Of a stretch of 64,000 nucleotides of DNA, positions 19,554-41,242 are shown piece by piece. Source of the stretch: Methylophilus sp. 14 (GTDB lineage: Bacteria; Pseudomonadota; Gammaproteobacteria; Burkholderiales; Methylophilaceae); contig NZ_JADKYS010000003.1 in assembly GCF_015354345.1 (NCBI RefSeq), positions 464,856 to 528,855 of the forward strand, in the 5' to 3' direction. Position numbers and translations under genes: made by a program. The notes below the pieces were generated by a model. The model did no database searches. It saw nothing but the letters and a program-made list of their open reading frames with translations, and had not been told where the DNA came from. How positions within the stretch are numbered: the first letter of the stretch is position 1; every line of letters begins with the position of its first letter.

Positions 19554-20045
19554 TTATGCTCCAACCGCGGCCAAACGGTTCACTTGCAGCTCATGTGTTT
19601 TTTGGGCAACCATTTGGCCTAGCGACATATCAGCCTGTACCGGACGCGCCATCGCTGACTTCTCCAGTGTTTCCCATGCGCTTTTCAATTCCATCAGCAA
19701 CTGTTGAATTTCCTGTACTTTTTTCACATCCTGACGCACGCTGGCTTCCATCAGGCTACGTGTCATATATTGGTAAAGCTGATCCAGATTCTGCGCAATA
19801 TTGCCACCGGCACGCTTGTCCAGGCAGGCACGCAAGCCACTATCGACAATAGTCACAGCCTGGGTCAGGTATTCCCCTTTTTTGGCAATATCGTGCTGCG
19901 CCATCGCTTGCTGGGCATGAATGCAGGCAGAAATTGCACCGTCATACAGCATGACGATCAGTTTCAACGGGCTGGCATCCACCACACCGGTTTCCAACCC
20001 TACGCTTGCATAAGCATTCACACCTAACTTTTTCATCCCGAACAT
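19554..20045 (-). CDS. fliS: Flagellar export chaperone FliS
   Basis: FliS binds flagellin and keeps it export-competent. From the ATG at 20045 (AGGAG upstream) the product is 163 residues. It contains the family core NAYASVGLETGVVDASPLKLIVMLYDGAISACIHAQQAMAQHD and a helical C-terminus. It is a little longer than the usual 125-145 residues because of the tail after about residue 125 (METLEKSAMARPVQAD region). It lies between fliD and fliT. Confidence 0.94.
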   Translation of the reverse strand: MFGMKKLGVNAYASVGLETGVVDASPLKLIVMLYDGAISACIHAQQAMAQHDIAKKGEYLTQAVTIVDSGLRACLDKRAGGNIAQNLDQLYQYMTRSLMEASVRQDVKKVQEIQQLLMELKSAWETLEKSAMARPVQADMSLGQMVAQKTHELQVNRLAAVGA

Positions 20046-20126
20046 TTTTGACTCCTGAATTCTGCTTAAAAGCGCATGGTTTAAGATAATTTGCCAGCCG
20101 CTCACTGCAGAGATTGACCGCTTCCA

Positions 20127-21794
20127 CTAGTTGTTGGCGCTAATCGCTGCCAGTTGTGAAGTCAGGTTACTGCTTGTGCTCTGCAAGCTACTGAGCAAGG
20201 CATCCAGCTTCGCATACTGTGCACGGTAGCGTGCTTCAATCGCGGGCAGCTTGGCACTTATATCATCGGCCTTTTTGTTCAAATCTTTAATCGAACTTGA
20301 AATACCATCAGTTTTTGTTGTCAATGCGCCTTCGGTATCCAGCCAGCCGTCCAGCAAGCTGCTGAGCTCGCCTGCCAGGCCTTTGCTAAAGGTCACGGTG
20401 CCACGACTGCCAGTGGCCGTGCCAGTGACACTCAATTGCAGCCCATAGCTGCCATTGCCGATCACACCAGTGAGCACAGAACCCGTGGTGTTGGCCGTCA
20501 CGCCGTTAATCGTACCAATCGCATTGACACCATTACCGCCCAGTTGCGTGATATTCACCGCATAGGTGCCAGAGGCCGTATCATCCTTGCTGCCGAGAAA
20601 AGTCACCTGTGGATCGGTAGAGGTCGCCGAAGGCGAGAACAACTTGGCCACATCACTGACATTGTTAGTAATGGCTTTTTGTAATTTAGTACTATCCAGC
20701 GATAACGACCCATCCGAGCCCATGCTGACGCCAATATCGCTCAGGGTTTTATAGGTGGTGGCTGTGGGCGAAGAAGCCGATAACATCGACTTTAACTTGA
20801 CCATAATATTGCGCGCCGTCGAATCTCCCAGCAAGGCCCCATTGGAGGTCGAGCCCGCCGACACAAACTTGGTCAGGTTACGCATACTGGTATTCAGCGC
20901 GTTATAAGCATCGACAAAGCTTTGTACCGAGGCCTGTATGGTATCGGTGTCCGTGCCCACACTCAGCGTATTACTGGCCGAGGTGACCGTCTTCAGCGTC
21001 AAGGTGACGCCCTGAATCACGTCTGAGACGGTATTACTGGCTTTGCTGATACTCATGCCATCAACCGTCAGCAAAGCGTTTTTCGCTGCCGTCATTTGTG
21101 TCATGTTATTGCTACTGGCCAACGGATCATAGGCCAGCGCAGACAAGCCGCCGGTATCGGTGTTGTTACCATCATCATCGGCCACCGATATTTTGAGACT
21201 ATTCACCTCGCCGGTGTCTTTAGACGTAATTACCAAGCGATTGCCGCTACCATCATTGACGATAGACGCGGAGACAGACGCGTTTTTGGCATTGATCGCA
21301 TCACGGATACCTGCCAGCGTATTGTTGCTGCTGGTGATGTCTATGGTGATATCGGTCTTATCGGCATTCGCCGTAAATGAGGCAGGTGCAGTTCCGGTAG
21401 TTCCAAAAGAAATAGTGAGTTTGCCGGTGCCCACAATATCGGTCGCGCTGCTGTAAGCAGGCGATGCCAGTTTTTGTGAGGTCGCCAGTTGCGTGACTGA
21501 CACACTATAGTTACCAAGCACTGCGGTGCCGTTGGCAGTGGCGCTGATGCTGGTCGCATCACTCGCAGTCACCGATTGCGCATTAAACTTGGCGGCGGTG
21601 GCCAATTTATCAACAGCCGTTTGAAACGTACTGAGCCCGCTCTTGAGCGTGCTATAGGCTGACAGCTTGGTATTGTAAGACGATATTTTGGTTTGAATAT
21701 CAGCAATGGGTTGCTGTTCCGCCTGCATCTGCGCCGTGACTAAAGAGTCAATAGGCAGGCCGGATGCGCCTGTAGAGGATACAATCGATGTCAT
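20127..21794 (-). CDS. fliD: Flagellar filament cap protein FliD (HAP2)
   Basis: FliD caps the filament and folds incoming flagellin. The 555-residue protein has the N-terminal region STGASGLPIDSLVTAQMQAEQQPI, and the Ser/Thr/Ala/Asn-rich middle typical of FliD. The C-terminal coiled coil includes SSIKDLNKKADDISAKLPAIEARYRAQYAKLDALLSSLQSTSSNLTSQLAAI. GGGAG precedes the ATG. It lies between flaG and fliS. Confidence 0.96.
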   Translation of the reverse strand: MTSIVSSTGASGLPIDSLVTAQMQAEQQPIADIQTKISSYNTKLSAYSTLKSGLSTFQTAVDKLATAAKFNAQSVTASDATSISATANGTAVLGNYSVSVTQLATSQKLASPAYSSATDIVGTGKLTISFGTTGTAPASFTANADKTDITIDITSSNNTLAGIRDAINAKNASVSASIVNDGSGNRLVITSKDTGEVNSLKISVADDDGNNTDTGGLSALAYDPLASSNNMTQMTAAKNALLTVDGMSISKASNTVSDVIQGVTLTLKTVTSASNTLSVGTDTDTIQASVQSFVDAYNALNTSMRNLTKFVSAGSTSNGALLGDSTARNIMVKLKSMLSASSPTATTYKTLSDIGVSMGSDGSLSLDSTKLQKAITNNVSDVAKLFSPSATSTDPQVTFLGSKDDTASGTYAVNITQLGGNGVNAIGTINGVTANTTGSVLTGVIGNGSYGLQLSVTGTATGSRGTVTFSKGLAGELSSLLDGWLDTEGALTTKTDGISSSIKDLNKKADDISAKLPAIEARYRAQYAKLDALLSSLQSTSSNLTSQLAAISANN

Positions 21795-21827
21795 TTCTTA
21801 ATCTCCCAACCGAATTAAAACGCCATA

Positions 21828-22172
21828 TCAGGCTGTCTGTCGTACCACCAGCCCGCGTAATTTATCCAGCGTTTTACTGATGGCTAACACTTCCTCATTG
21901 GGAATCTGGCGCAATACCTTTTGTGTTTCGGTATCCACCACTTTCACAATGATGCGTTCGCTATCATCATCGATAGAAAACTCTATCGTTTGTAACGCTG
22001 GTGCTACATATTCATTTAACTTTTTGACAGCACCGGTCAACGCGGCTTTGTCATTCACATCAGCTGCAGCTTTATCAGCAGATGATTCAGCATATTTCAC
22101 CAGCTTTAAACTACTGGCCGCCTGCACACCCTTTAAACCACCGCCTACACCATTAACAAATGAATCACTCAT
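21828..22172 (-). CDS. flaG: FlaG family flagellar protein
   Basis: A 114-residue protein with the FlaG C-terminal domain: VAPALQTIEFSIDDDSERIIVKVVDTETQKVLRQIPNEEVLAISKTLDKLRGLVVRQTA. FlaG limits filament length in some bacteria. AAAGGAG lies 7 bases before the ATG. It sits between flagellin and fliD, separated from fliC by a hairpin. Confidence 0.92.
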   Translation of the reverse strand: MSDSFVNGVGGGLKGVQAASSLKLVKYAESSADKAAADVNDKAALTGAVKKLNEYVAPALQTIEFSIDDDSERIIVKVVDTETQKVLRQIPNEEVLAISKTLDKLRGLVVRQTA

Positions 22173-22244: not shown

Positions 22245-23042
22245 TTAGCCTCTCAGCAATGTCATCACTTGGTTAGGCAACTGGTTCGCTTGAGCCAGCA
22301 TCGCAGTACCAGCTTGTTGCAGAATCTGTGCACGTGTCATCTTCGCTGTTTCTGAAGCGAAGTCAGCATCAGTGATACGTGACTTGGCAGCAGACATGTT
22401 CTCAGACGCTACGCCCAGGTTGCTGACCACTGAAGCAAAACGGTTTTGGTAAGCACCCAATGTCGCACGGCTGGTGTTCACTGTCGTCAATTGTGCGTCA
22501 ATCGCTGTAATCGCATCTGAAGCGGCATCTGCTGAAGACAGGGAGCCTGACAGAGAAGCTGCTGAGACAGAAGCCACGCTGATGGTATCGCCACTGTCAG
22601 CACCAATCTGGAAGTTATAACCAGCACCGAATGCAGCTTGGCCGTTAAACTTGGTGGCAGTACCCAAACGTGTCAGTTCTGACTTCAGTTGTGAAAATTC
22701 TGTATCCAGGTTTGCACGGTCACCAGAGCTGTAGGAACCGTTAGCTGCCTGTACAGCCAGTTCACGCATACGTTGCAAGGCATCGGTTGCGCTGCTCAAA
22801 CCACCTTCTGCAGTTTGCAGGAAAGAGATCGCGTCGTTAGCGTTACGTGTTGCAACATCCATACCGCGAACTTGTGAGTCCATACGTGTTGCAATCGCCA
22901 TACCAGCCGCATCGTCTTTAGCGCTGTTGATACGCAGACCAGAAGACAAGCGTTGAATAGAAGTATTCAGGCTGCCTTGTGAAGCGTTTAAGTTACGTTG
23001 TGCATTCAAGGATGCCAAGTTGGTGTTGATTACTGAAGCCAT
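22245..23042 (-). CDS. fliC: Flagellin FliC
   Basis: The filament subunit, 265 residues. The N-terminus VINTNLASLNAQRNLNASQGSLNTSIQRLSSGLRINSAKDDAAGMAIATRM and the C-terminus ENMSAAKSRITDADFASETAKMTRAQILQQAGTAMLAQANQLPNQVMTLLRG are canonical D0/D1 flagellin. The middle is very short and Ser/Ala-rich (about residues 150-195), so D2/D3 domains are essentially absent. AAAGGAG precedes the ATG, and a strong sigma-28 promoter lies upstream. Surface Ser/Thr in the short central part are plausible glycan sites, given the neighbouring genes. Confidence 0.97.
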   Translation of the reverse strand: MASVINTNLASLNAQRNLNASQGSLNTSIQRLSSGLRINSAKDDAAGMAIATRMDSQVRGMDVATRNANDAISFLQTAEGGLSSATDALQRMRELAVQAANGSYSSGDRANLDTEFSQLKSELTRLGTATKFNGQAAFGAGYNFQIGADSGDTISVASVSAASLSGSLSSADAASDAITAIDAQLTTVNTSRATLGAYQNRFASVVSNLGVASENMSAAKSRITDADFASETAKMTRAQILQQAGTAMLAQANQLPNQVMTLLRG

Positions 23043-23154: not shown

Positions 23155-23181
23155 TTATCGACCGCTGCAGAAATTTCTTTA
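23155..23181 (-). promoter_or_regulatory. Sigma-28 promoter of fliC
   Basis: On the minus strand, TAAAGAAA (23174-23181) and GTCGATAA (23155-23162) are separated by exactly 11 bases, matching the FliA consensus at 13 of 16 positions. It is about 112 bases upstream of the flagellin start, giving a leader of roughly 100 bases. Confidence 0.9.
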
Positions 23182-23532: not shown

Positions 23533-24831
23533 ATGGCATCAGTTTATGTAGGGATGACGGTAGACATCTTGCACCATGGCCATATCAATATTATTGAGCA
23601 GGCCAGAAAGTATGGCGACGTCACCATCGGCCTGTTATCCGATGCGGCGGTCGCGGACCATAAACGTCTGCCTTACCTGACTTATGAACAGCGCAAACAG
23701 ATCGTCAGCAATATTCGCGGTGTGGTGAATGTGGTGCCGCAGGAAGAATGGGACTACGCACCCAACCTGCTCAAATACAAACCCGACATCATGGTGCATG
23801 GCGATGACTGGCTGGAAGGTCCGTTGGTGCCTTACCGTGACCGTGCACGTGCTGCGCTGGCCGAGTATGGTGGCCACCTGATTGAGATTCCTTATACACG
23901 CGGTGTGTCTTCCAATGAAATGCTGAGCCAGATCCAGGCCTTGGGCACCACGCCTGATATCCGCCGCCGCACCTTGAAAAGATTACTCACAGTCAAACCG
24001 ATTTCGCGTTTTATTGAAGCGCACAACCCGATTTCTGCGCTGATTGCCGAGCACGTCACCGCACAACGCAATGGCAAAAGCTGCCAGTTCGATGGTTTCT
24101 GGTCGAGTTCGCTGACCGATTCCACCGCACGCGGCAAGCCGGATATTGAAGCGGTGGAGATCAATAGCCGCTTATCTAATATTAATGACATTTTTGATGT
24201 CACCACCAAACCTTTAATTATGGATGCTGACACCGGCGGCAAACTGGAGCACTTTGAACTCAATGTGCGCAGCATGGAACGCCTGGGGATTTCGGCCACC
24301 ATTATCGAAGACAAAATTGGCCTGAAAAAGAATTCTTTATTTGGCAACGAAGTACCGCAATTGCAGGACGAGATTGAGCCCTTCTGCGAAAAAATTGCCG
24401 CTGGCCGTGCTGCCCGTGTCAGCGATGACTTTATGGTGATTGCGCGTATCGAAAGCCTGATCCTGGAAAAAGGCATTGCAGATGCCGTCAAACGCGCGCA
24501 AGCCTATGTCGGCGCTGGCGTCGATGGCATCATGATTCACAGCCGCCAGAAAACAGCGGACGAAGTATTTGAGTTTGCCAAGATATTCAAATCCGAGTTC
24601 CCAACCACACCTTTAGTCTGCGTACCCACCAGCTACAACAAGGTGACAGAGGAAGAACTGGCCGCACACGGCTTTAACCTGGTGATTTATGCCAACCACA
24701 TGATGCGTGCGGCTTACCCGGCCATGCAGAATGCCGCCATGGAGATCCTCAAAAATGGCAGGACAGCAGAAATCGAATCCAGCCTGATGTCGATTAACGA
24801 TGTGCTGGAACTGATTCCAGGGACTAAATAA
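23533..24831 (+). CDS. Bifunctional cytidylyltransferase / phosphoenolpyruvate mutase
   Basis: The 432-residue protein joins two domains. Residues 1-140 are a cytidylyltransferase-like fold with the nucleotide-binding HxGH motif (H14-HGH17 in DILHHGHINII) and a RGVSSNE loop in place of the usual RTxGISTT. Residues about 150-425 are PEP mutase of the isocitrate-lyase superfamily. The mutase signature EDKIGLKKNS at 259-268 and the metal-binding stretch LIMDADTGG are intact. The mutase turns PEP into phosphonopyruvate, making the C-P bond. The fused domain suggests that the final phosphonate is activated with CTP. AAAGGAG precedes the ATG, and the next gene starts 9 bases later. The mutase call is firm; the nucleotidyl substrate is inferred. 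Confidence 0.92.
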   Translation: MASVYVGMTVDILHHGHINIIEQARKYGDVTIGLLSDAAVADHKRLPYLTYEQRKQIVSNIRGVVNVVPQEEWDYAPNLLKYKPDIMVHGDDWLEGPLVPYRDRARAALAEYGGHLIEIPYTRGVSSNEMLSQIQALGTTPDIRRRTLKRLLTVKPISRFIEAHNPISALIAEHVTAQRNGKSCQFDGFWSSSLTDSTARGKPDIEAVEINSRLSNINDIFDVTTKPLIMDADTGGKLEHFELNVRSMERLGISATIIEDKIGLKKNSLFGNEVPQLQDEIEPFCEKIAAGRAARVSDDFMVIARIESLILEKGIADAVKRAQAYVGAGVDGIMIHSRQKTADEVFEFAKIFKSEFPTTPLVCVPTSYNKVTEEELAAHGFNLVIYANHMMRAAYPAMQNAAMEILKNGRTAEIESSLMSINDVLELIPGTK

Positions 24832-24840
24832 GCGGAGCAC

Positions 24841-26019
24841 ATGATGATTCATGCTGAAGACTTTTTAAGTGCATTGCAAACCGAACAAGTGCAATTTGTT
24901 GCCGGGGTGCCCGACTCATTACTTAAAGAATTGTGTGCCTGCTTTTCAGACAAGCTAGCAAAGGATCAACATGTGATCGCCGCCAATGAAGGTGGTGCGA
25001 TTGGCCTGGCCATTGGCCACTACCTGGCCACCCAACAACCTGCCCTGGTCTATATGCAAAACTCTGGCCTGGGCAATGTGGTCAACCCGATTGCGTCACT
25101 GGCAGACCCACAAGTGTATGGCATTCCTATGTTATTGGTGGTCGGCTGGCGGGGCGAGCTCGATGCCGATGGCACACAAATCCATGATGAACCACAGCAT
25201 GTCAAACAAGGCCAGATTACGCTGTCACAACTTGATGTGCTAGGCCTGCCTTATCAAGTGATGACCGATCATATAGAAACAGCCCATGCGCAAATCCAAA
25301 CCTTATTAAACCAGGCCATAACACGTCAAGGCCCGGTTGCCTTGGTCGTGCGCAAGCAAAGTTTTGCGCCGTATAAGCCAGTGAAAACAAGCACGTCCCC
25401 TGCCTCGGCTCTGGCAGAAAAATTAGCGGTGCTGGAAAGCCGTGAACATATGATCGAACAGATTGTGTCAGCCTTGCCAGAAGATGCCGCCGTCGTCGCG
25501 ACCACCGGCATGGCTTCGCGTGAGTTGTTTGAGCTGCGTAAAGCCCAACAGGCCGGGCACGGCCGTGACTTTCTGACGGTGGGCGGTATGGGCCATGCCT
25601 CGCAAATTGCCTGTGGCATTGCGCTGGCACAGCCAGACCGGCAAGTCGTCTGTATTGACGGCGATGGCGCCATGCTGATGCACATGGGCAGCCTGACCAT
25701 CAGCGCCCAGCAAGCGAACTTGCTGCATATCGTATTGAATAATGGTGCCCATGACTCCGTAGGTGGGCAACCAACCGTCGCCGCGCAATTGGCATTGGCC
25801 GAGATTGCCAGTGCCGCTGGCTATACGCAGGTGTACAGCGTATCCGGCGCAGAACAACTAAACCAGCTCATTCCACAAGTCCTGCGCAGTGGCAAAAGCT
25901 GCCTGATTGAAGTGTTGTGCCGCAAAGGTGCCCGTGCCGACCTGGGCCGCCCTACCCGCACGCCAGCCCAAAACAAACAGGACTTTATGCAATTTTTAAC
26001 CGAGGTGGAATATGCTTGA
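24841..26019 (+). CDS. Phosphonopyruvate decarboxylase
   Basis: A 392-residue thiamine-diphosphate enzyme that pulls the unfavourable mutase reaction forward by converting phosphonopyruvate to phosphonoacetaldehyde. The N-terminal domain has VPDSLLKELC and IAANEGGAIGLAIGHYLAT with the catalytic Glu. The C-terminal ThDP-binding domain has GGMGHASQIACGIAL and the metal/ThDP motif CIDGDGAMLMHMGSL ending in the NN dipeptide (VLNNGAHDSVGGQPT). The length is normal for Ppd/AepY. It overlaps the next gene by 8 bases. Confidence 0.93.
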   Translation: MMIHAEDFLSALQTEQVQFVAGVPDSLLKELCACFSDKLAKDQHVIAANEGGAIGLAIGHYLATQQPALVYMQNSGLGNVVNPIASLADPQVYGIPMLLVVGWRGELDADGTQIHDEPQHVKQGQITLSQLDVLGLPYQVMTDHIETAHAQIQTLLNQAITRQGPVALVVRKQSFAPYKPVKTSTSPASALAEKLAVLESREHMIEQIVSALPEDAAVVATTGMASRELFELRKAQQAGHGRDFLTVGGMGHASQIACGIALAQPDRQVVCIDGDGAMLMHMGSLTISAQQANLLHIVLNNGAHDSVGGQPTVAAQLALAEIASAAGYTQVYSVSGAEQLNQLIPQVLRSGKSCLIEVLCRKGARADLGRPTRTPAQNKQDFMQFLTEVEYA

Positions 26020-27007
26020 AGCAACCACCACCATACACGCGCATGTCGCTGCCCAAAACCAGCATAAAGTGCTGTTTACTGCGGGCCCGGCCAGCTTGCT
26101 TGAAGAAAACCTGCTAGGTTTGCGCCCGTGCTTCGGGCGTGGTGACCTCGACTACAATCAGGTTGATCATGCGGTGCTTTCCGCTCTCAAACACATGACC
26201 GGCCACGCGCAGATCGCGCGCCTGCAAGGCTCCGCCAGCCTGGCATTGGAAATTGCCAGCCTGAACTTTTTGCATGGCAAAGTACTGGTCATCGACAGTG
26301 GCTATTACGCCCAGCGATTAGTCAGCTTTGCGCAACTGGCTCAGCGTACGGCTGGCCAGGTGTCACTGGTCACCGTCTGCGACTGGCAGCAACTGGCCAA
26401 TATCAGCGGCCGTTACGACTGGGTCGTCGCCTGCTATACTGAAACCAGTGCTGGCCTGTTATTGCCAATTGCGGATTTGCGCGCATTGGCAGACCGCGTC
26501 GGCGCGCAGCTTATGCTGGATGCCACGGCCTCTATCGGCCTGGAAATAGATCACGGCCTGGCAGATGTGATTGCCTATAGCTCCTGCAAAGGCCTGTTTG
26601 GCCTCACAGGCGCCTCGTTTATTGCATTTAACCAGTTACCAAAACACGAGGTCGACTCGTTTTATCTCAATCTGGCGACACATTTGGAACGTCGCATGAC
26701 CGGCCCTTACCATGCCATGGCCTCGCTATATGAAGTGTTACCCAAGCATGATGACTTGCGCGAAGCGGTGTTTATCAACAAAGCCCAGATGCTGAAAAAG
26801 ATTGGCACTTATGCCACGCACCCCGTGCACTACCAGCCCGTGCTCTGCACCTGGGTCGATGCCACAGTCAGCAGCCAGGATAGCCGTGCAGTGCTCTACC
26901 AGTCACGCGGGATCAGCCGTGGCAGCGTGGTCTGCCATCTGGGCGAAGCACACCTGGGCAGTGCAGCACGCGGCGCCATTCTCGATTTACTGGAGTTACA
27001 GCCATGA
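26012..27007 (+). CDS. Class V aminotransferase, probable 2-aminoethylphosphonate-forming
   Basis: A 331-residue PLP enzyme related to AEP transaminase (PhnW/AepZ). It shows FTAGPASLLEENLLG near the start, the LQGSASLALEIASLNF cofactor region, LMLDATASIGLE with the PLP-pyridine Asp, and the Schiff-base Lys at K193 (YSSCKGLFGLTGASF). It is shorter than catabolic PhnW (about 360). Sitting after the decarboxylase, it should aminate phosphonoacetaldehyde to 2-aminoethylphosphonate. It overlaps both neighbours (8 and 4 bases). The direction and donor are inferred from context. Confidence 0.88.
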   Translation: MLEATTTIHAHVAAQNQHKVLFTAGPASLLEENLLGLRPCFGRGDLDYNQVDHAVLSALKHMTGHAQIARLQGSASLALEIASLNFLHGKVLVIDSGYYAQRLVSFAQLAQRTAGQVSLVTVCDWQQLANISGRYDWVVACYTETSAGLLLPIADLRALADRVGAQLMLDATASIGLEIDHGLADVIAYSSCKGLFGLTGASFIAFNQLPKHEVDSFYLNLATHLERRMTGPYHAMASLYEVLPKHDDLREAVFINKAQMLKKIGTYATHPVHYQPVLCTWVDATVSSQDSRAVLYQSRGISRGSVVCHLGEAHLGSAARGAILDLLELQP

Positions 27008-27417
27008 CGCAGCCACCCAAACGCATTATGGTCGATATGTCAGCGACCTTGATCCATCATGGTCATGTGCGCCTGTTAAAAGCGGCTAAACAGTTAGGTT
27101 ATGTGGTCGTTGCCCTGACGACCGACGAAGAAATTCGCGCCAAAAAAGGCTATGAGCCTGAGCTCGATTACGCCGCCCGTGCCGAAGTATTACTCGCCAT
27201 GCGCGATGTCGACGAAGTTGTGCCTAGCCCCTGGCTGCTCGATGAAGCCTTTTTGCAGCAACACAAGATTGACCTGCTGGTGCACGGTCACGATAACAGC
27301 AACCCGATTGCCGCTGAAAAATTGCATATTTTGCCGCGCACAGAAGGCATCAGCAGCACCTTGTTGCGTGCCCGCGTGCTCAAAGCCGTCAGTCAAAAAA
27401 TGGAAGCAAACACATGA
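27004..27417 (+). CDS. TagD-like cytidylyltransferase
   Basis: A 137-residue stand-alone nucleotidyltransferase of the glycerol-3-phosphate cytidylyltransferase class. It has the HxGH motif (H18-HGH21 in TLIHHGHVRLLKAAKQLG) and the signature loop RTEGISSTLLRAR near residue 115. The operon already carries a related domain fused to the PEP mutase, so the two may activate different substrates, for example the phosphonate and a glycerol phosphate, or one may be structural. The start overlaps the preceding stop as ATGA. Confidence 0.87.
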   Translation: MTQPPKRIMVDMSATLIHHGHVRLLKAAKQLGYVVVALTTDEEIRAKKGYEPELDYAARAEVLLAMRDVDEVVPSPWLLDEAFLQQHKIDLLVHGHDNSNPIAAEKLHILPRTEGISSTLLRARVLKAVSQKMEANT

Positions 27418-28112
27418 GTAACCTCTGGCAACAGATTTGGGAAAAGCGCAGCCTGCAACCGCAGCATGCCATCACATTGGAGACGCTGATTGCCCTGGAC
27501 GGCTTCGATAGCGGTGCAGGCAAAATCGACCTCGCCGACTGGCAGGAATATACGCGCCGCATCAGTGACAAGCTGGGGATGCAGTCTGGTGACTCGGTCT
27601 TTGAGGTCGGTTGTGGCGCCGGGGCTTTTTTGTATGCCTTGCGCCAGCAGCATCCCTTAACCGTTGGCGGCCTGGATTATGCCGCCGGACTGATTGAAGC
27701 TGCACAACAGGCCATGCCTGATGGTGATTTCCAGGCTATTCCTGCGCAATCGCTAGACACCAGCAAGGAATATGACTTTGTGATTGCCAACAGTGTATTT
27801 CATTATTTTGACGAAGCCATGGCCGCCGAAGTGTTCCAGGCCATGTGGCAAAAAGCCAGGGTGGGCGTCGCCATCCTCGACATTCCACATGCGGCCACCA
27901 AAGCGGCTTGCGAGCGTGCCCGCCGCGATGCTTTGACCGAGGCTGAGTACGAAGAAAAGTACCGTGGCCTGCATCACACCTATTACACGCCTGAATGGTT
28001 TAGCCAGCAATTGCCAACCAAACCACAGCAGGTATTTGAAAGCTGCGTGCCCAATTACGCACAAAGCCAATACCGTTTCAGTGTTATTTTTACTAAACGC
28101 TTGCATGGATAA
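27414..28112 (+). CDS. SAM-dependent class I methyltransferase
   Basis: A 232-residue methyltransferase with SAM motif I VFEVGCGAGAFLYAL, followed by VGGLDYAAGLIEAAQ (motif II acidic region) and YDFVIANSVFHYF (motif IV region). The substrate is unknown. Embedded in a phosphonate-activation operon with ATGA coupling to the cytidylyltransferase, it could N-methylate aminoethylphosphonate or methylate the sugar that carries it. That role is inference only. Confidence 0.85.
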   Translation: MSNLWQQIWEKRSLQPQHAITLETLIALDGFDSGAGKIDLADWQEYTRRISDKLGMQSGDSVFEVGCGAGAFLYALRQQHPLTVGGLDYAAGLIEAAQQAMPDGDFQAIPAQSLDTSKEYDFVIANSVFHYFDEAMAAEVFQAMWQKARVGVAILDIPHAATKAACERARRDALTEAEYEEKYRGLHHTYYTPEWFSQQLPTKPQQVFESCVPNYAQSQYRFSVIFTKRLHG

Positions 28113-28118
28113 GCCATC

Positions 28119-29507
28119 ATGACGACTACCCCACACCAACCCGTGTTTACTTTCTTTTATACCGACAACTGCGAGCGCCAGGCCCTGGCGCCGGTGGCCG
28201 ATGAGATCGCCAGCAGAGGCTATGTGATTCAATGGAGCACCAACTCCAAGCAATATGCCGAGGTCGGCGTGTATTGCGAGCACGCGTGCAAACCAAATGC
28301 CGGATTTTCAGTCATCTTGCTGCACGACCTGGCGCAGCGCCATGATATCTGGCCACACTTCTGGCATCATGAGCCATGGACCGCGTTTGATATGGGCATT
28401 GTGCCTGGCCCGGCATGGGTCGAGCGCTGGCAGACACAAACCAACTTTAAACAGGCCCGCCCAAAACTAGGCGTATTTGACCTCGGTTGGCCCAAAGCCG
28501 ACCTGGTTTACCGCAACCAGGAAACCTTTAAACTGGAAGCGCAAAAGTTGCGCGAGCAACTGGGCCTGAAATACGAACACTCCATCCTCTATGCACCGTC
28601 CTGGGAAAACCACGGCAAGCAGGATGAGTTTGTACAGGCCCTGAAAGACCTGCCGGTCAACCTGTTGCTGAAACAGGCGCCCTGGTCAGACAAATACCGC
28701 TGGGTACTGAACAATATCGACGCCATGGATGCGCTGCATAGAAACTGTGCCGACAATGTCTATGTCGTCGACCGCGAAGTCAGCATCATGTATTGCCTGG
28801 GCCTGGCTGATGTCATGGTCTCCGATGAGTCCAGTGTGCTCACAGAAGCCTTATTGCTGGATGTCCCCGGCATTGCAGTTACCGACTGGCTGATTCCAGA
28901 CACCAACCCACCGCGCCCGGCCAGTGTGCCTTATGACTATGTGATTAAAACCGTCAAAGCTGATCTGCGTCGCACGGTAGAACACGTCTTACAGAACGCC
29001 GCCGAATACCAGCAGCAGATCACGCAAAACAAGCAGCACCAATTTGCCCACCTGGGCCAAAGTGCGACCTTGATTGCAGACAATATTCTTGCTGCCCTGG
29101 CTGGACACACGCACTTACCTACCCCCGCGCTCAAGGCACAAGTCGACATAGACCGGACCACCTATCAGCAAGCGGAAAAACTGGCGGCAGAAGGTGATAT
29201 GAAACTGTCTACGCAAATGATGCTGGAACTGATCAAGCAAGAAAGTAGTTGCTGGGAGCCCTATAATGACCTTGGCACCCTGCTGGTGAGCCAGGGGCAA
29301 TTTGAGGATGCCGAACTACTGCTGGAAAAAGCCGTATTACTGGCGCAAGAGAACCCTGCCATCCCGCTCAGCAACCTGACAGAGGTTTATTGCCTGCAAC
29401 AAAAGGCCGATAAAGCGCTGGCAACCCTGGCCAAACTGAGCAAATATACGCCTAACCCGGTCGGCTCTATCCCGCATATCCGCCGCTGCATGGAAACCAT
29501 GTTTTAA
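28119..29507 (+). CDS. TagF/CDP-glycerol-glycerophosphotransferase-like enzyme with TPR-like tail
   Basis: A 462-residue protein. Residues about 1-330 resemble the GT-B-like polyol-phosphate transferases of teichoic acid synthesis: HDLAQRHDIWPHFWHHEPW, SILYAPSWENHGKQDEF and the signature VMVSDESSVLTEALLLDVPGI. Residues about 350-460 are TPR-like helices (SCWEPYNDLGTLLVSQGQFEDAELLLEKAVLLA). Enzymes of this fold transfer a phosphoryl-alcohol from CDP-activated donors. In this operon the natural donor would be CDP-aminoethylphosphonate, which would place the phosphonate on a glycan or protein. The acceptor is not shown by sequence, but TPRs suggest contact with a protein or the neighbouring TPR glycosyltransferase. 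Confidence 0.82.
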   Translation: MTTTPHQPVFTFFYTDNCERQALAPVADEIASRGYVIQWSTNSKQYAEVGVYCEHACKPNAGFSVILLHDLAQRHDIWPHFWHHEPWTAFDMGIVPGPAWVERWQTQTNFKQARPKLGVFDLGWPKADLVYRNQETFKLEAQKLREQLGLKYEHSILYAPSWENHGKQDEFVQALKDLPVNLLLKQAPWSDKYRWVLNNIDAMDALHRNCADNVYVVDREVSIMYCLGLADVMVSDESSVLTEALLLDVPGIAVTDWLIPDTNPPRPASVPYDYVIKTVKADLRRTVEHVLQNAAEYQQQITQNKQHQFAHLGQSATLIADNILAALAGHTHLPTPALKAQVDIDRTTYQQAEKLAAEGDMKLSTQMMLELIKQESSCWEPYNDLGTLLVSQGQFEDAELLLEKAVLLAQENPAIPLSNLTEVYCLQQKADKALATLAKLSKYTPNPVGSIPHIRRCMETMF

Positions 29508-38346: not shown

Positions 38347-39050
38347 TCACACTAAACTAGCCAGCGCATTTAACTTATTTTCAAGCATCGGCAACCGACT
38401 CTGGCTTGCAGTATCGGGCGGTAAGTGCCCAGCCAAGGCTTGCCGAAATGATGGATTAGTCATCAACTCGGCAAACCTTACTTGCAAATAACTTTTTAGC
38501 TCTGGCCCTGCTTGCTTGCACTCATCCACCAGAGTCTCAAGCCCATCGACAACCGCAATAATGTCACCCAAATCATGACTGAACAAAAAATCGCAGTTGC
38601 CACGGTCTGCAAAGGCTTCCAGTTTAGTTGCAACAAATACTGGCGCAATAATCAGCTTAATCTCTTTGCCACTTGGCAAGGTAAAAGGCTGCGAAGTTGC
38701 AACCGCTAACGGATACCAGCGGTTAGCAAAACCCAAAACCGTTTTTTCCATAGGCATGACGTCTACCGTCAAAGCGCCGATACGCCAACGACATATTGGT
38801 GCATCTGCTGCCATATCTTGCACGAACCCCTGCGCTTTAATGCAGCTTCTGCGGCGTGGTACTCGCGCAGCACCGTCGCTTGTACCACTAAATCCACATC
38901 CTCTGTTGGGCGTATTGTCGGCATAGCCGGATCAGTAATCAGCAATCCTGCCACCGCTCCGCCCACAAACACCATGCGCTCAAGCAACTCTGCGCCCAAA
39001 TGCTGGGCAACGACCTCTAGCGACATCACATTGGGGTCATTTGCATTCAT
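38347..39050 (-). pseudogene. AbiEii-like nucleotidyltransferase, broken by a frameshift
   Basis: Two overlapping minus-strand frames (39050-38769 and 38823-38347) read as one protein if one base is changed. The first part has the nucleotidyltransferase core ERMVFVGGAVAGLLI and the metal motif TEDVDLVV. The second continues with RIGALTVDVMPMEKTVLGF and FVATKLEAFADRG, matching the rest of the AbiEii/AbiGii-type fold. The break lies near 38825-38835 in a run of G (AGGGG on the minus strand), where one extra G restores the frame. It could be a true mutation or a sequencing error. It overlaps the upstream HTH gene by 4 bases, as in toxin-antitoxin pairs. Confidence 0.78.
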
Positions 39051-39601
39051 GCCTGTGCGCTCAACCGTTCACTCAGCATTTCTTGCGCCAAATTGCGCTC
39101 ACGCGCACTGCCCGCGCGCAAGGCATCAAACAACACCAGCAATTCATACAAAGCCGGGTTGCGGTTTGCGGCATCTGGCACATTAGGGTAAAGCGGATAC
39201 AGCGCCATGCCACGCACCTTGCCATTTTTATCGGGCCACACCGGAGGCAGCTCATTAGATGCGATGATTTTTTCTTTCATCGGCGAAGCCGCATACAAAG
39301 TAGGCAAGCCGCGTGTGACTTCGCCATGAATTGCAGGGAAAGCATAGCGCGCCCCATACAGCAAAAACTGCTTGAATGCCTCGCGCACCAACTGTGGTTT
39401 GCCATCTGCCGCCTTGAACACCAATTGCGCTTGTATAGCACGCACCACACTGGCATGGACTTTAGAGGCCGCCAGCCCCAACTCCTGCCCGAGCGTCGCA
39501 TACGTTGGCATCGCCTCTCCTCGCCCAAGCGATAGCCGTAGCAACACCACCAGATCCTGGGGTTTTAAAGCAATCTGTTCATTTAGTTTAGCGCTTGCCA
39601 T
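39047..39601 (-). CDS. Winged-helix protein, probable partner of the nucleotidyltransferase
   Basis: A 184-residue protein. The first 70 residues look like a winged HTH (ALKPQDLVVLLRLSLGRGEAMPTYATLGQELGLAASKVHASVVRAIQAQLV). The remainder includes FAFPAIHGEVTRGLPTL-like FPAIHGEVTRGLPTLYAASP and is conserved in a family I do not have a name for. Its overlap with the AbiEii-like gene suggests an antitoxin or regulator of a two-gene module. A 23-base inverted repeat just upstream of its start is a likely autoregulatory operator. The assignment rests on context. Confidence 0.72.
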   Translation of the reverse strand: MASAKLNEQIALKPQDLVVLLRLSLGRGEAMPTYATLGQELGLAASKVHASVVRAIQAQLVFKAADGKPQLVREAFKQFLLYGARYAFPAIHGEVTRGLPTLYAASPMKEKIIASNELPPVWPDKNGKVRGMALYPLYPNVPDAANRNPALYELLVLFDALRAGSARERNLAQEMLSERLSAQA

Positions 39602-40617: not shown

Positions 40618-41199
40618 TTAGATGGTTTCGCGTATTGCCGGCCATGCTGCGCGCAAGTAGTAACCCATGGAAATCAGGGTCAGTAATGCGGCGATGACAA
40701 TCAGCCATTCACCCAGCCATTGCACATCTAATCCAAACAATGGGTCATACCAGAGCAATAAGGTAATCGCGACCATTTGCGCAGCCGTTTTGACCTTGCC
40801 GACCATGGCCACAGCCACGTTGGCGCTTTTGCCTATACTGGCCATCCATTCACGCAAGGCGCTGATGGCAATTTCACGGCCGATAATAATCAGCGCGACC
40901 ACCGCGCCTGCGCGATTTAACTCAACGAGCACTATCAAAGCCGCAGCGACCATGAGTTTGTCGGCCACCGGGTCTAAAAACGCGCCAAATTTTGACATCT
41001 GGTGATATTTGCGCGCCCAGTAGCCATCCAGCCAATCAGTGAATGCCGCCAGGATAAACACACTGGCAGCGGTTAAGTTGACCCAGTGGGCTGGTAGGCC
41101 ATCAGCGGTGACAGCATTGGCAGGCAGGTAAAAGATACCAACAAACACCGGGATCATGCCGATGCGCAACAAGGTAAGTATATTTGGGATATTCCACAT
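40618..41199 (-). CDS. pgsA: CDP-diacylglycerol-glycerol-3-phosphate 3-phosphatidyltransferase
   Basis: PgsA makes phosphatidylglycerol phosphate from CDP-diacylglycerol and glycerol-3-phosphate in the inner membrane. From the ATG at 41199 the product is 193 residues, starting MWNIPNILTLLRIGMIPVFVGIFYLP as in well-studied homologues. The CDP-alcohol phosphotransferase motif spans AAFTDWLDGYWARKYHQMSKFGAFLDPVADKL (D-x2-DG-x2-AR-x8-G-x3-D-x3-D). Four to five TM helices are visible. It lies 43 bases after uvrC and heads the tRNA cluster, the same order as in E. coli. Confidence 0.96.
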   Translation of the reverse strand: MWNIPNILTLLRIGMIPVFVGIFYLPANAVTADGLPAHWVNLTAASVFILAAFTDWLDGYWARKYHQMSKFGAFLDPVADKLMVAAALIVLVELNRAGAVVALIIIGREIAISALREWMASIGKSANVAVAMVGKVKTAAQMVAITLLLWYDPLFGLDVQWLGEWLIVIAALLTLISMGYYLRAAWPAIRETI

Positions 41200-41242
41200 G
41201 TTTATTCGTCTATGGATGCATACAAGGGCCATTTACCCGCGA

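Follow-up and report, generated by a model that had tools for sequence, protein, structure and literature searches.

An operon predicted to make and transfer an activated phosphonate beside the flagellin gene of Methylophilus

Introduction

Decoration of a flagellin with a phosphonate has a precedent in Clostridioides difficile, where 2-aminoethylphosphonate (AEP) was detected by mass spectrometry, as a minor form, on the N-acetylglucosamine (GlcNAc) of type A-modified flagellin (Hensbergen et al. 2022, PMC8861647). According to that report, C. difficile is negative for pepM, the gene for phosphoenolpyruvate (PEP) mutase, and the source of the AEP is stated there to be unknown. In the revised type A model, as given in PMC10714395, a nucleotidyltransferase produces a cytidine diphosphate (CDP) donor, from which the TagF-like protein CD0244 carries out transfer to the GlcNAc of FliC, and CD0243 methylates. 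The locus considered here lies in a 64,000-nucleotide stretch of Methylophilus sp. 14 (contig NZ_JADKYS010000003.1, positions 464,856 to 528,855), referred to throughout as the window. Six genes at 23533-29507, on the plus strand and next to the flagellin gene fliC, very probably encode, as judged by homology, a pathway to a phosphonate activated with cytidine monophosphate (CMP), and this pathway is probably flagellar. The genome is 3.0 Mb in size, and its closest named relatives are Methylophilus (PepM identity 92-99%). A preliminary description of the operon had held that a link between phosphonates and flagella would be new; since AEP is already reported on C. difficile flagellin, phosphonate on flagellin is not. 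What appears to be new is the presence of phosphonate biosynthesis genes beside a flagellin gene, for which no report was found in the accessible part of the open-licence full-text literature.

Results

The operon and its proposed pathway

In the proposed pathway, PepM would convert PEP to phosphonopyruvate, the decarboxylase Ppd would yield phosphonoacetaldehyde, and an aminotransferase would form AEP. A cytidylyltransferase would activate AEP to CMP-AEP, from which a TagF-like protein would transfer the phosphonate to an O-linked GlcNAc or short glycan set by the neighbouring GT41 protein, the enzyme presumed to place the receiving sugar on FliC. The phosphonate would probably be N-methylated, before or after transfer. 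That a CMP-activated AEP donor is made and that the phosphonate, probably N-methylated, is put on a flagellin sugar is judged likely from the genomic comparisons below. The sugar, the acceptor and the methylation are putative. The preliminary description had proposed the same course from AEP synthesis through CMP activation to transfer toward a flagellin glycan; it is well supported by comparative genomics, and overall it stands in part. The six genes are as follows.

23533..24831, plus strand: pepM, phosphoenolpyruvate mutase with an N-terminal cytidylyltransferase-like domain (TIGR02320, PF01467)
24841..26019, plus strand: ppd, phosphonopyruvate decarboxylase (TIGR03297)
26012..27007, plus strand: AT, class V aminotransferase, divergent PhnW/AepZ relative and probable AEP aminotransferase (TIGR03301 below cut-off, 7e7g)
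27004..27417, plus strand: CTPT2, stand-alone cytidylyltransferase, probable cytidine triphosphate (CTP):AEP cytidylyltransferase (PF01467, 3elb)
27414..28112, plus strand: MT, S-adenosylmethionine-dependent methyltransferase (PF13649 and related models)
28119..29507, plus strand: TagF-like transferase, presumed user of CMP-AEP, with a C-terminal TPR region (PF04464, 8qoy)

The six-gene operon is confirmed as real. As had been claimed, all six genes occupy these positions and are tightly coupled, with junctions that overlap or leave at most 9 bp. In 11 of 12 comparisons with two loci of the same genus (L025, from Methylophilus methylotrophus DSM 46235, and L030), the ratio of nonsynonymous to synonymous substitution rates (dN/dS) lay between ~0.01 and 0.11, synonymous change (dS) being saturated in the remaining one; the six genes are therefore kept under purifying selection.

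PepM and Ppd are identified at the family level by their profile scores. PepM reaches 412.8 bits against TIGR02320 (cut-off 319.55), and the five named residues of its EDKxxxxxNS motif, here EDKIGLKKNS, are invariant in 12/12 aligned proteins; Ppd reaches 475.1 bits against TIGR03297 (cut-off 312.5). Cytidylyltransferase domains occur twice, one fused to PepM and the second three genes on. The fused domain (PepM residues 9-97) matches PF01467, and its best PDB match is 5x3d (158 bits), which is taken here to be the Fom1 cytidylyltransferase. A reading of this domain as dead, from the Tyr in its YTRGVSS where CTPT2 has RTEGISS, was dropped because 5x3d too carries YTPGISS. CTPT2 itself matches PF01467, is closest in the PDB to the ethanolamine-phosphate cytidylyltransferase 3elb (1.2e-18), and retains HHGH together with R-T and S-S of RTEGISS in 12/12 aligned proteins. 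The predicted roles of AEP aminotransferase, cytidylyltransferase and transferase draw on these family assignments and on the non-orthologous replacement described below.

Of the transfer genes, MT scores 44 bits against PF13649 (cut-off 27) and possibly N-methylates AEP. The TagF-like protein scores 29.3 bits against PF04464 (cut-off 22.1) and carries a TPR tail; a profile built from 11 relatives gave 51 matches, nearly all on that tail, and the single TagF-type match was the TagF-like polymerase 8qoy (1.4e-10). The neighbouring 2491-residue protein has the domain order TPR, GT41, GT2-like, TPR, GT41, TPR and a methyltransferase-like C-terminal module, for which the name Cmt is coined here (PF13844, 364 bits in 4 stretches; PF13712, 27.8 bits, cut-off 27; Methyltransf_12, 38.1 bits, cut-off 30). 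GT41 and Cmt, fused in Methylophilus, are separate genes on either side of the operon in Methylotenera; Dechloromonas has Cmt joined to GT2, and genome G421 has it joined to TagF, RgpF and GT2.

A non-orthologous supply module in a second family

The strongest evidence for CMP-AEP as the probable donor and for a flagellar target is the locus of G421, a Burkholderiales genome of another family than Methylophilaceae. Its MT and TagF are 50% and 58% identical to those of the window, as against 33% for PepM and 34% for Ppd. The G421 PepM has a C-terminal fusion to a MobA-like NTP transferase, and PF12804 domains are present in this genome. Two cytidylyltransferase domains are kept there as well. 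The aminotransferase is an AepZ at 362.0 bits (cut-off 360.8). The best PDB match of the stand-alone cytidylyltransferase is 6pd1 (1.4e-43), the Treponema enzyme Tde1415, which was purified and is reported to prefer AEP (Rice et al., PMC6697681). A single 2061-residue frame combines TagF with Cmt and with glycosyltransferase domains; ~210 bp past it, on the same strand, comes the start of fliC, followed by flaG, fliD and fliS. A non-orthologous CMP-AEP route beside the same transfer genes and a flagellin would be hard to explain unless the donor were CMP-AEP and the target flagellar.

Flagellar surroundings and linkage to fliC

The flanks of the operon contain the following features.

22245..23042, minus strand: fliC, flagellin that would carry the modified glycan (Flagellin_N and Flagellin_C)
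23155..23181, minus strand: sigma-28-like promoter for fliC, differing at one position from TAAA-N15-GCCGATAA
29668..37143, minus strand: glycosyltransferase of 2491 residues (PF13844, PF13712, Methyltransf_12)
21828..22172, minus strand: flaG, labelled from position; a homologue follows fliC in relatives
20127..21794, minus strand: fliD, labelled from position
19554..20105, minus strand: fliS, labelled from position

The names flaG, fliD and fliS at 19554-22172 are thus presumed from gene position, and TAAA-N15-GCCGATAA is taken to be the sigma-28 consensus, boxes of this kind numbering 11 in the window against 3.86 expected by chance. The preliminary description had placed the operon directly behind the flagellin gene; instead, fliC lies on the minus strand and diverges from the operon across a 490-bp intergenic region. 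The location given there between fliC and the GT41 gene is right in that both flank the operon, the GT41 gene being convergent with it.

The same description had suggested a search for pepM next to fliC in related genomes, and such a linkage is indeed found in 11/11 Methylophilus genomes with full pepM, within 10 kb in 2/3 Methylotenera, in Dechloromonas and in G421. In two Methylotenera loci (L031, L032) the order is GT41, the six genes, Cmt, fliC, flaG and fliD, all on one strand, with pepM 8.1 kb and 7.2 kb from fliC, respectively. In Dechloromonas (L034, L123) a 1754-residue Cmt+GT2 gene comes after the six genes, and fliC lies ~160 bp beyond it. Simple hitch-hiking with fliC was considered and rejected because the Dechloromonas FliC (38% identical to that of the window) has diverged far beyond PepM (76%).

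Within Methylophilus, 22 genomes were sampled; in the 11 with full pepM the gene is divergent from fliC and ~0.5 kb away (the named loci L024-L030 come from such genomes and add nothing to the count). Taken alone, this linkage could be plain inheritance. Only the operon tail was seen in G006 and G018, on contigs under 5 kb, and 9/22 assemblies are without the operon, five of these nine being only 82-94% complete. Nine pepM-minus loci were fetched and three scanned, and other glycosyltransferase genes stood at the fliC flank in two of the three. One (L115) has a 2OG-Fe(II) oxygenase, a formyltransferase-like gene and a 2502-residue GT41+GT61+GT2 gene; another (L121) has a TOD1-like gene beside a GT41 homologue; in the third (L116) no glycosyltransferase was found in the three genes scanned. 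Given these other modification genes, the operon appears to encode one among several flagellin decorations that can be exchanged for each other. Glycosyltransferases thus adjoin fliC and vary between relatives, as in flagellin glycosylation islands.

Some further observations concern the flagellins themselves. The G421 flagellin (L132:11349-12968) has 539 residues, against 265 in the window, and its central insert is rich in Ser and Thr (97 of 314 residues). Two Methylophilus loci without pepM (L114, L115) have three consecutive flagellin genes. Flagellin core composition was tried as a predictor of pepM and rejected, the Ser/Thr counts of 18 flagellins failing to separate pepM-positive from pepM-negative strains.

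Distribution of the operon and the general-surface alternative

The close version of the TagF-like gene is rare. In overlapping draws of genomes from the family, order, class and phylum, TagF homologues with an E value of 1e-20 or below were present in 16/187 family genomes (13 Methylophilus and 3 of a second genus, probably Methylotenera L031-L033), in 4/399 order genomes (the present one, two Methylophilus and G421) and in 1/398 phylum genomes, the present one only; an MT homologue at 1e-30 was likewise confined to the present genome among 369 class genomes. Flagellin was searched for in 44 genomes (12 + 32) to which PepM-type loci had led, L024-L030 and L076 lying outside this set. It was found in five of the first 12 (three Methylotenera, Dechloromonas and the strain of the operon remnant L075), and in the other 32 it was over the cut-off in two and below it in one.

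Several observations weigh against the assignment of the operon to the flagellum, and some of them favour the alternative that it decorates a general surface polysaccharide or lipopolysaccharide with AEP or a related phosphonate, the adjacency of fliC being incidental. Seven of the first 12 genomes and all of the other 32 are without close TagF. Among these 39, a set that includes weak or partial PepM matches (L066, L067, L068, L070, L073) and several incomplete assemblies, flagellin passed the cut-off in two and was without any match in 36. In the two flagellin-bearing ones (L039, L047) the fetched flank held no fliC match even at E 1. Seven genomes in which no flagellin was detected hold related cassettes (PepM identity 55-74%), and some of these cassettes adjoin polysaccharide genes: a Balneolaceae metagenome-assembled genome has neighbours of NeuB, epimerase, carbamoyltransferase and GDP-mannose dehydratase types (Pfam; 5/8 genes matched), Vulcanococcus has an epimerase alongside (1/2 genes matched), and the L069 cassette, read by eye, lies in a glycan cluster. 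Most bacterial phosphonate capacity, moreover, serves cell surfaces, as stated by Rice et al. 2019 (PMC6697681). Taken at large, the PepM family is not flagellar. However, the occurrence of the operon mostly away from flagellar genes, which the preliminary description had named as contrary to its proposal, is seen only for relatives without close TagF, with 2/39 flagellin-positive. The version with close TagF was seen solely in flagellin genomes, bar the fragmentary Methylophilus drafts G006 (no fliC match) and G018 (weak fliC match). Its position beside fliC takes several dissimilar forms, one of them with a non-orthologous donor module, and fliC comes immediately after the final gene of the block in both Dechloromonas and G421. 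A general-surface role with incidental fliC adjacency is therefore regarded as unlikely, and a flagellar target is preferred.

Other points against a flagellar target concern linkage and expression. In the third Methylotenera locus (L033) the GT41-operon-Cmt block is intact, and regulators and further unrelated genes separate it from fliC, which lies ~29 kb away. In Methylotenera D1-2020 (L075), the GT41 and Cmt genes are intact, and between them (L075:10001-10836) there are only remnants of pepM, of CTPT2 and of the TPR tail of TagF; fliC is on another contig, of a different length (395,515 against 416,441). The remnants are read as a natural loss of the operon, and decoration and linkage can therefore both be lost. 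Part of the observed linkage may go back to the inheritance or transfer of a single island, and not to independent events. Finally, no sigma-28 box precedes the operon in the intergenic region (plus strand, up to 2 mismatches).

Identity and destination of the phosphonate

Two further features count against the proposed chemistry. The model requires one cytidylyltransferase domain, and the operon has two; and AT scores 72.8 bits against TIGR03301 (PhnW/AepZ), far under the cut-off of 360.8, and is therefore a divergent member at best. Of the other families named in the preliminary description, PepM and Ppd (over their cut-offs), the two PF01467 domains, the methyltransferase and PF04464 all stood. 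The low AT score, together with the closeness of the PepM N-terminus to 5x3d (presumably the Fom1 domain), could mean that the phosphonate on flagellin is neither AEP nor N-methyl-AEP but, for example, hydroxyethylphosphonate. However, the best PDB match of AT is still an AEP-pyruvate transaminase (7e7g, 2.6e-13), and its Lys193 in SSCKG, presumably catalytic, is invariant in 14/14 aligned proteins; CTPT2 is closest to an ethanolamine-phosphate enzyme, and in G421 a canonical AepZ and a relative of PntC take the place of these genes. A different phosphonate is accordingly thought improbable, more so than a general-surface role.

Least probable by a wide margin is that the phosphonate goes to a lipid or remains a small molecule. 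The ethanolamine-phosphate cytidylyltransferase type of CTPT2 would suit such a fate, as would a gene downstream of the L069 cassette that, read by eye, resembles a CDP-alcohol phosphotransferase. However, the six genes include no CDP-alcohol phosphotransferase and are partnered by a TagF-like protein and a giant glycosyltransferase instead, and the CDP-OH_P_transf gene of the window (40618-41232), beyond four tRNA genes and adjoining uvrC, looks like an ordinary phospholipid gene. AEP on flagellin remains the preferred product.

Other observations in and around the window

Small minus-strand open reading frames lie at 38347-39601, between the GT41 gene and the four tRNA genes; two have no Pfam match, and by eye they look like a decayed nucleotidyltransferase-type gene pair. 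A second PF13714 protein (G000:C9:531374-532099, ~2.5 kb past the window end), 27% identical to PepM, is perhaps a methylisocitrate-lyase type enzyme. Recycling by C-P lyase was considered and set aside, as no PhnJ was found in the genome. In SAR11 (L042, L043), relatives of PepM, CTPT2 and the aminotransferase occur with a convergent TagF-like gene, at ~30% identity; no flagellin was found in either, and the set is perhaps a related surface phosphonate system.

Discussion

If correct, the model presented here would supply a genetic route for a C-P group on the flagellum and would point, by analogy, to a possible mode of attachment for the AEP of C. difficile flagellin. It names candidate enzymes, namely a TagF-like transferase for CMP-AEP and a methyltransferase that possibly N-methylates AEP, and it would offer a non-pathogenic methylotroph in which to ask why phosphonates go to filaments, for example for resistance to hydrolysis, phage or grazers.

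Among described systems, several share parts of this design. The phosphonyl tailoring (Pnt) pathways of Rice et al. 2019 (PMC6697681) have a PepM-fused cytidylyltransferase, Ppd, an aminotransferase, cytidylyl activation and surface transfer, features that the operon has or is predicted to have, and G421 adds a relative of the solved enzyme 6pd1. However, that paper names LicD-like phosphotransferases where the operon has a TagF-like transferase, and the string 'flagell' occurs 0 times in its main text, whereas the operon lies next to fliC. Fom1 of the fosfomycin pathway resembles the operon PepM in its N-terminal CTP_transf_like domain, but it serves an antibiotic and activates hydroxyethylphosphonate, while the operon stands in a surface-transfer context (PMC6697681). 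In Prochlorococcus (PMC8931226) a phosphonate on a protein-linked glycan has been postulated, as proposed here; there the carriers are cell-surface glycoproteins and the genes oligosaccharyltransferase-like, whereas here the carrier would be flagellin.

The closest likeness is to the C. difficile type A system (CD0240-CD0244), in which FliC is the carrier, a protein glycosyltransferase acts first, a nucleotidyltransferase is proposed for the CDP donor, and a TagF-like transferase (CD0244 was modelled on TagF) is combined with a methyltransferase, the set being compared by description. As in type A, the operon adjoins the flagellin gene and a glycosyltransferase, here GT41, whose target is putative. 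However, type A carries phosphothreonine, proposed from a ThrH-like protein, and is marked by N-methylthreonine in phosphodiester linkage to GlcNAc, whereas the operon would provide a phosphonate, its C-P bond made by genes at the fliC side; CD0242 is of the NTP-transferase family, whereas the operon cytidylyltransferases are PF01467; and no ThrH/PSP-like protein of the CD0241 type was found among the six operon genes, to which that search was limited. With no ThrH-like protein and a different cytidylyltransferase family, the operon is therefore described as working like type A and is not classed as a member. On balance, and somewhat less firmly than for the donor and its transfer, the evidence favours a dedicated, genetically encoded phosphonate decoration of flagellin, in which an MT/TagF/Cmt module beside fliC would be served by interchangeable CMP-AEP supplies in several betaproteobacterial lineages, as a C-P counterpart of C. 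difficile type A.

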